NCBI GenBank assembly: GCA_021163265.1
Contig: JAGGXC010000025.1
Span: forward strand, 1 to 43,124
Direction of reading: 5' to 3'
Origin: a bacterium
GTDB taxonomy: Bacteria > Patescibacteriota > Minisyncoccia > Minisyncoccales > JAGGXC01
Length of the DNA stretch: 43,124 nt
Shown one piece after another: positions 645 through 18,159 of the stretch. The position numbers and the translations under genes are program-made. Below the pieces are notes generated by a model, which saw only the letters and a list, made by a program, of their open reading frames with translations, ran no database searches and was not told where the DNA came from. The stretch's first letter is position 1. Each line of letters begins with the position of its first letter.

Positions 645-679
645 GGGAAAAAAGAGGAGGAGAGAATTATTTTCTCTCC
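645..679 (-). terminator. intrinsic terminator (minus strand)
   Basis: minus strand GGAGAGAA-AATAA-TTCTCTCC followed by TCCTCTTTTTT. Confidence 0.7.
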
Positions 680-957
680 AGATAATTATTAGAAGTTGGT
701 TTGAGCTGGAGAAGCTCGCACCAAATGAAAGAACAATAAGAAACTGAGTTTGGCTTCCAGCTGGTCCAATTCCTAAGAAAAAGCGCTTAGCATAGACTGA
801 AAGCCTGGCAATACTAGTAATTATCAGATGTGCACAAGGATATCAAAGTGAAGGATGCCAGATTTAGTAATGCCGCAACGCTCAGTTTCTTTTACTTATA
901 AAAGAGCTTTTAAAAAGTCTGGAAATAGAGAGAAATTTATATTTCTTTCTATTTCCA
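645..957 (-). ncRNA. candidate structured RNA of about 300 nt (orphan riboswitch/attenuator leader or stand-alone sRNA)
   Basis: promoter at 963-992; 5' 18-bp hairpin 919-936/941-958; long-range 11-bp helix 738-748/881-891; inner helices 752-756/801-805, 773-777/786-790, 805-810/856-861; hairpin 696-724; terminal intrinsic terminator. Confidence 0.6.
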
Positions 958-962
958 GTCAT

Positions 963-992
963 ATTATATCATATTCCTTAGGTATTTGTCAA
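963..992 (-). promoter_or_regulatory. sigma70-type promoter
   Basis: minus strand TTGACA (992-987), 18-nt spacer, TATAAT (968-963). Confidence 0.7.
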
Positions 993-17361: not shown

Positions 17362-17403
17362 AACCTTTTGTTGTTTTTGTTAATTATATAATTGACCTTT
17401 TTT

Positions 17404-17482
17404 GTAGCTCGCCTTAGGTCCTCCTGCCTAGGCGTCCTCCCTTTCGTTCTCCGACTAGGTGGGAGAACTTAGGGTAAGCTAC
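17404..17482. repeat. 79-bp palindromic/hairpin element in the tasA-like 5' leader
   Basis: outer GTAGCT/AGCTAC, next CCTTAGG/CTTAGGG (with wobbles), inner GTTCTCC/GGAGAAC and GCCTAGGC palindrome. Confidence 0.65.
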
Positions 17483-17487
17483 TTTTT

Positions 17488-17511
17488 GCAGATCTATTAA
17501 TACAGATCTGC
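17488..17511. repeat. perfect 8-bp hairpin GCAGATCT-attaatac-AGATCTGC
   Basis: perfect inverted repeat adjacent to the 79-bp palindromic element. Confidence 0.7.
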
Positions 17512-17711
17512 AAGTTCGACCTTTATTTATTTTATTTTTTAGTTTTCAAAAATAAATTTTCAAAAATAAAAATCCGCTTCAAATACGGACACAAAAAGTA
17601 AAAACCATTCTTTTAATTTATTCTCAGTACCATTATTTCTTTTTGTTTTGTCTTCTGTGTATTTCACGCCACTTTGTCTAGCCCTCCCCTAGATCTTAGG
17701 ATGATAGCCTT

Positions 17712-17740
17712 ACCCTATCATAGATAAAAAAGAGTGTCAA
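17712..17740 (-). promoter_or_regulatory. possible promoter for the tasA-like gene
   Basis: minus strand TTGACA (17740-17735), 17-nt spacer, TAGGGT; implies a leader of about 340 nt. Confidence 0.4.
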
Positions 17741-17820
17741 GACCCCCGAGTAAATTTCCACATTGTCCTACTTTATGTCATTCCAGGGAAAAAAGTCAAG
17801 AGATAGTTTTCCACAATCTT

Positions 17821-18159
17821 TTATTTGTTTCTAAAGATGCCTAGTTTTTCAATTTGTTTGATTTCTTTTGATTTTTTTGCGTAAGTATAAAGAGCAATAA
17901 TTGTGAAAATCAACAAGGCAAAAAACCAAATGTATAACTCTATCCAAGAACCATTTCTTATAATCGCGCTGAAAAACAAAAGCGAAGTGATTATAAAAAA
18001 ACCTTTCCACCAATAATTTTTAAAATACTCCCATTCTTCCTGAATCTTCTCCCATTCCTTGCCTACTTCTTTGAGTTTTTTTTCTAGCTCTTTTTCTTCT
18101 TCTGGAGTAAGTTCAAAAAATTTTTTAGGATTAATATTCTTAGGAATAAAAGGAGTCAT
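17821..18159 (-). CDS. small hypothetical membrane protein
   Basis: 112 aa with charged N-terminus and two TM segments. Confidence 0.65.
   Translation of the reverse strand: MTPFIPKNINPKKFFELTPEEEKELEKKLKEVGKEWEKIQEEWEYFKNYWWKGFFIITSLLFFSAIIRNGSWIELYIWFFALLIFTIIALYTYAKKSKEIKQIEKLGIFRNK

Follow-up and report, generated by a model that had tools for sequence, protein, structure and literature searches.

A predicted minus-strand RNA unit with its own promoter and terminator in a small bacterial genome, possibly the terminated leader of a promoterless reading frame

If an intergenic stretch is framed by a promoter and a terminator and holds no convincing reading frame, does it encode a free-standing RNA or the leader of the next gene? 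This question arises at positions 645-992 of a 43,124-nucleotide contig (hereafter the window, the whole stretch of DNA analysed) from a bacterium with a 674 kb genome. An original prediction had placed an unassigned structured RNA of about 300 nt on the minus strand there, and had ranked it as the best candidate in the window for an undescribed element. Few regulatory RNAs have been described from small, reduced bacterial genomes of this kind.

The predicted promoter was found in place. TTGACA (992-987) and TATAAT (968-963) are separated by an 18-nt spacer on the minus strand. Dinucleotide shuffles of the complete window contain on average 0.1 matches of this quality (12/12), and the real sequence has two. 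The closing hairpin with its T-run was likewise located on the minus strand, at 659-679, so that an own promoter and an own terminator are both supported (Table 1). The absence of a convincing reading frame also held: frames inside the RNA are short and have poor coding scores on the minus strand. On the plus strand, the promoter scan found no match of at least 9/12 within 1-1000, and we therefore rejected a plus-strand transcript at this locus. The core of the RNA has a GC content of 41.6%, versus 28.3% in the other non-coding DNA of the window; raised GC is a property already used for finding structured RNAs in AT-rich genomes (PMC8632094).

Table 1. Positions of the features discussed in the text (window coordinates unless a locus label is given).
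Feature	Position	Strand	Remark
Sigma-70 type promoter, TTGACA-N18-TATAAT, TG before the -10 element	963-992	minus	12/12 consensus match
Predicted non-coding RNA or 5' leader, ~280-300 nt	655-957	minus	from about 957 into the T-run past 659
Terminator hairpin GGAGAGAA/TTCTCTCC	659-679 (arms 659-666/672-679)	minus	intrinsic type
Terminator of the upstream gene	998-1022	minus	isolates the RNA unit
5' terminal hairpin, then ACUUUUU	919-958	minus	z -6.9
Two-branched core (fold model) with a perfect 11-bp closing helix	738-891	minus	P about 0.01 in shuffles
Two-part stem, loop UCUCC	696-724	minus	fold model
Long hairpin immediately 5' of the ATG of ORF 37-576	577-633	minus	z -6.5
ORF of 179 aa, probably transcribed by read-through only	37-576	minus	N-terminus weakly like ribosomal protein L9
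Conserved leader RNA	17395-17520, within intergenic 17362-17837	minus	z -6.2
Other copies of the conserved leader	L072:1501-1621, L073:1501-1609, L074:1618-1501, L075:1501-1641		covariance model

As a whole, the element folds beyond chance (z -4.7, none of 200 shuffles being as good), and among 286 stretches of 300 nt from both strands one other locus alone, at 17401, scored as low. The plus strand folded even better (z -5.6). Folding therefore gives no evidence on the strand, which is provided by the promoter and the terminator. Between the end hairpins (681-915), z was about -1.8 and 9 of 200 shuffles folded as well; the core at 738-891 reached -2.5. The signal of the entire element, and with it the term structured RNA, therefore depends mainly on the end hairpins; nearly all of the excess folding is found in the 5' hairpin and in the small stems on the 3' side.

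Most of the proposed helices were recovered by the minus-strand fold model. The 5' hairpin (919-936/941-958) comprises 17 pairs and one A-C mismatch; the G-U pair noted for one strand belongs to the plus strand. The 11-bp helix (738-748/881-891), described in the original prediction as organising the RNA, was predicted with pair probabilities of 0.83-0.99, but its weight had been overstated, since a perfect 11-bp inverted repeat arose in ~1% of shuffles. GGCTT/AAGCC (0.99), CTAAG/CTTAG (0.78) and the two-part stem (696-700/720-724 and 703-707/713-717, 0.7-1.0) were all reproduced. The CTGGCA/TGCCAG stem (805-810/856-861) failed, with a probability of 0.01 on the minus strand, where the model has 809-812 paired with 873-876. 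Since none of the relatives searched carries a homologue in which covariation could be seen, the fold stays a prediction.

Known families do not account for the RNA. Rfam searches of the locus and the window, by gathering score as well as by E-value, gave chance hairpins and no family, which agrees with the original statement that no tmRNA, RNase P, SRP or 6S hallmarks were recognisable. The tmRNA and RNase P RNA models had no match at the locus, their copies being located elsewhere in the genome (contigs C2, 3223-3569, and C20, 1665-2047), and the 6S model RF00013 matched neither the locus nor any part of the family's three genomes. To build an alignment, homologues were to be collected from related genomes, as had been suggested with the original prediction; blastn in 39 relatives, including one genome of the same genus and one of the same family, returned none. 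The same DNA search found the other leader of the window (17395-17520) in the sister species, with 86% identity, and was therefore able to see a conserved RNA. Among blastn matches of 20-40 shared bases, the two that we opened (L004, L005) fell inside genes and were discarded. A covariance model of the core, built from the single sequence, found itself and one 24-bit match (G051) among 247 genomes of the order; the latter lies antisense to a 273-aa ORF and was rejected. At a loose threshold, the model had no match in the two nearest relatives. That is, neither the 39 relatives searched by blastn nor the 246 other genomes of the order searched by covariance model, the sister species included, yielded a homologue that could show compensatory changes. 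The exact pattern of the long helix, searched in all bacterial genomes, hit a single Desulfatirhabdium MAG, in a repeat array that is unrelated, and phage and plasmid collections contained no match.

We then considered the surroundings of the RNA. The promoter scan found no minus-strand match of at least 9/12 between 963 and the start of ORF 37-576 at 576. Because no promoter lies between the terminator and this ORF, we read the RNA as the leader of the ORF; with an ORF lacking its own promoter, the RNA is equally a leader and need not be free-standing. Contig C27, which runs into murD, opens with the same 25 bases as the start of the window (minus strand); the adjacency of the two contigs rests on this overlap and on the synteny seen in the sister species. 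In the resulting order, the membrane-protein gene (1040-1567) and its terminator come first, then the RNA with its own terminator, ORF 37-576, a further terminator and finally murD. The sister species carries a homologue of the membrane-protein gene (28% identity), then a terminator and immediately afterwards murD (69% identity), so that the RNA and ORF 37-576 represent extra material between these genes; the genome of the same family carries a different gene set upstream of murD. Judged by this comparison, the RNA and the ORF behave as one gained-or-lost module of about 1 kb. The terminators flanking the ORF (659-679 and positions 24-44 of C27), ~640 bp apart, differ in one base of 21, possibly a duplication or insertion scar.

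ORF 37-576 has a coding score of 0.21 in its own frame versus -0.06 and -0.02 in the others, with known genes ranging from 0.15 to 0.45. It matched no entry in Pfam, NCBIfam or PADLOC and no solved toxin, and searching for it in a collection of genome contigs gave no match. Over residues 9-60, it matches the ribosomal protein L9 of many genomes of the order, including the L9 of its own genome (pairwise E 5e-6; profile comparison with hhalign E 6.9e-5, probability 63), and the GYARNFL segment of L9 reads QNVHEFI in the ORF. This kinship is suggestive, not proven. An AlphaFold model from the one sequence was poor (pLDDT 55). In this genome, an L9-like ORF is located at position 17754 of C27.

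Our preferred and simplest reading, to which we assign about even chances, is that the RNA would be the terminated 5' leader of ORF 37-576, accumulating as a small RNA and acting mainly in cis. A strong, constitutive-type minus-strand promoter would produce an untranslated RNA of ~280-300 nt. Most transcripts would end at 679-655 and build up as a small RNA with a hairpin at each end, while a minority would read through into ORF 37-576, whose start would be further buried in a hairpin (577-633) covering its ribosome-binding site. The leader would thereby attenuate, mainly in cis, and keep ORF 37-576 low. The promoter, the terminator and the lack of an internal promoter can be read directly from the DNA; transcription, the ratio of read-through and any signal or protein that might shift it are what we infer. 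This reading is favoured by the 12/12 promoter, by the upstream gene ending at 1022-998 and the RNA at 679-659, each with a terminator, by the lack of a promoter before the ORF, by the coding score of the ORF next to the short frames of the RNA, by the initiation hairpin (z -6.5), and by the RNA and the ORF being present or absent together in comparison with the sister species. RCd22-abiF of Clostridioides difficile, described below, is a close precedent for the mechanism. Against a leader, the terminator was favoured when the RNA was analysed as an attenuator, and the freed terminator arm paired only weakly upstream, giving no clear antiterminator; the T-run begins five bases past the terminator stem (after UCCUC), and ORF 37-576 could own a weak promoter outside the model of the scan. 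As a terminated leader, the RNA would count as a lineage-specific representative of an already known kind. If true, a terminated leader before a newly gained gene would mean that genomes as reduced as this one continue to build RNA control for individual genes.

Other explanations have to be weighed against a terminated leader. The complete promoter-terminator unit with its protective end hairpins would also suit a free-standing small RNA that pairs with mRNAs in trans, ORF 37-576 being an independent neighbour; the exposed UCUCC loop could pair with GGAGA ribosome-binding sites, and a second promoter-hairpin-terminator unit without an ORF exists at 1788-1637. We consider this unlikely, as the RNA is not conserved and the ORF has no promoter. 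It is improbable that the locus is a decaying intergenic stretch of tandem terminators and a chance promoter whose core holds no functional RNA. Nothing in it is conserved, the core folds little better than shuffles, and the 5' hairpin followed by ACUUUUU might serve the upstream gene as an additional terminator, but the 12/12 promoter and the raised GC of the core argue otherwise.

The layout and the shared presence or absence of RNA and ORF would also fit an RNA-protein pair, in which the RNA binds and controls the protein of ORF 37-576 in the style of type III toxin-antitoxin systems or AbiF/RCd22, and the weak L9-like (rRNA-binding) N-terminus points the same way. In RCd22-abiF of Clostridioides difficile, a SigA promoter, an ncRNA and a terminator precede a gene without a promoter, short and long transcripts share one start, expression by read-through has been demonstrated, and RCd22 also acts in trans on the protein (PMC12373285). 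Our locus has the same order, with read-through here being proposed. However, RCd22 is 132 nt long with two abiF motifs (RF03085) and an AbiF protein; RF03085 had no Rfam match at the RNA, and ORF 37-576 showed no Abi_2/AbiF match. ToxIN and CptIN share with our locus the order promoter, RNA, terminator and small ORF, including the terminator between RNA and ORF, but they have tandem repeats and toxins. In 645-957 we found no repeat array of antitoxin size and no matching direct-repeat family, and ORF 37-576 matched no ToxN-, CptN- or TenpN-type protein. Membership in either group is thus not supported, and we regard an RNA-protein pair as improbable. Its narrower form, a species-specific pair in which a protein with a diverged L9 RNA-binding domain binds the ~280-300 nt RNA and is controlled by it, would be very improbable. 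The predicted untranslated leader of ~280 nt, terminator and initiation-blocking hairpin resemble riboswitch and attenuator leaders; unlike these, the locus lacks a known Rfam aptamer, a clear antiterminator and conservation. With 6S RNA it shares the own promoter of a small RNA, but its modelled core is branched rather than one long rod with a central bulge.

A second ORF-less unit runs from 1788 to 1637 on the minus strand (z -7.95), with a 10/12 promoter at 1821-1793, a terminator at 1661-1637 and a long hairpin around a C-rich loop (CAUCCCAUCC). It looks like another small RNA.

The rank of best undescribed candidate in the window passes to the leader at 17395-17520, because it is conserved across genera and the RNA at 645-992 is not. 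A covariance model recovered it in the sister species and in three further genera of the order (E 1e-10, 1e-5 and 3e-4), so that, with the present one, five genomes and four genera carry it. Each copy lies on the sense strand and ends 22-33 nt before the start of a gene for an exported protein; among the five linked genes, four combine a SipW-dependent signal with a match to the camelysin/TasA group, and one has no family match. The consensus is AAGUGGCUUACCCUAAGU...ACCUAAGGCGAGCCACUU, with a nearly invariant outer stem (AAGUGGCU/AGCCACUU) and nearly invariant segments GGCUUACCCUAAGU and CCUAAGGCGAGCC. Two small alignments each contain two pairs in which both sides have changed; as evidence of covariation this is thin. 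Rfam gave no match on the leader loci searched. From its sequence and position, this appears to be an undescribed leader RNA of SipW-dependent TasA/camelysin-type genes. Having no relatives, the RNA at 645-992 limits what sequence alone can tell, and the leader at 17395-17520 is far more testable.

Upstream of this leader, the same intergenic region contains a GC-rich non-coding stretch at 17540-17780 (minus strand, GC 41% around 17651) with a terminator-like hairpin near 17570-17590. Despite the very small size of the genome, 12859-17361 encodes a SipW-type signal peptidase and SipW-dependent exported proteins, probably a surface or matrix cluster of the TasA-like type.
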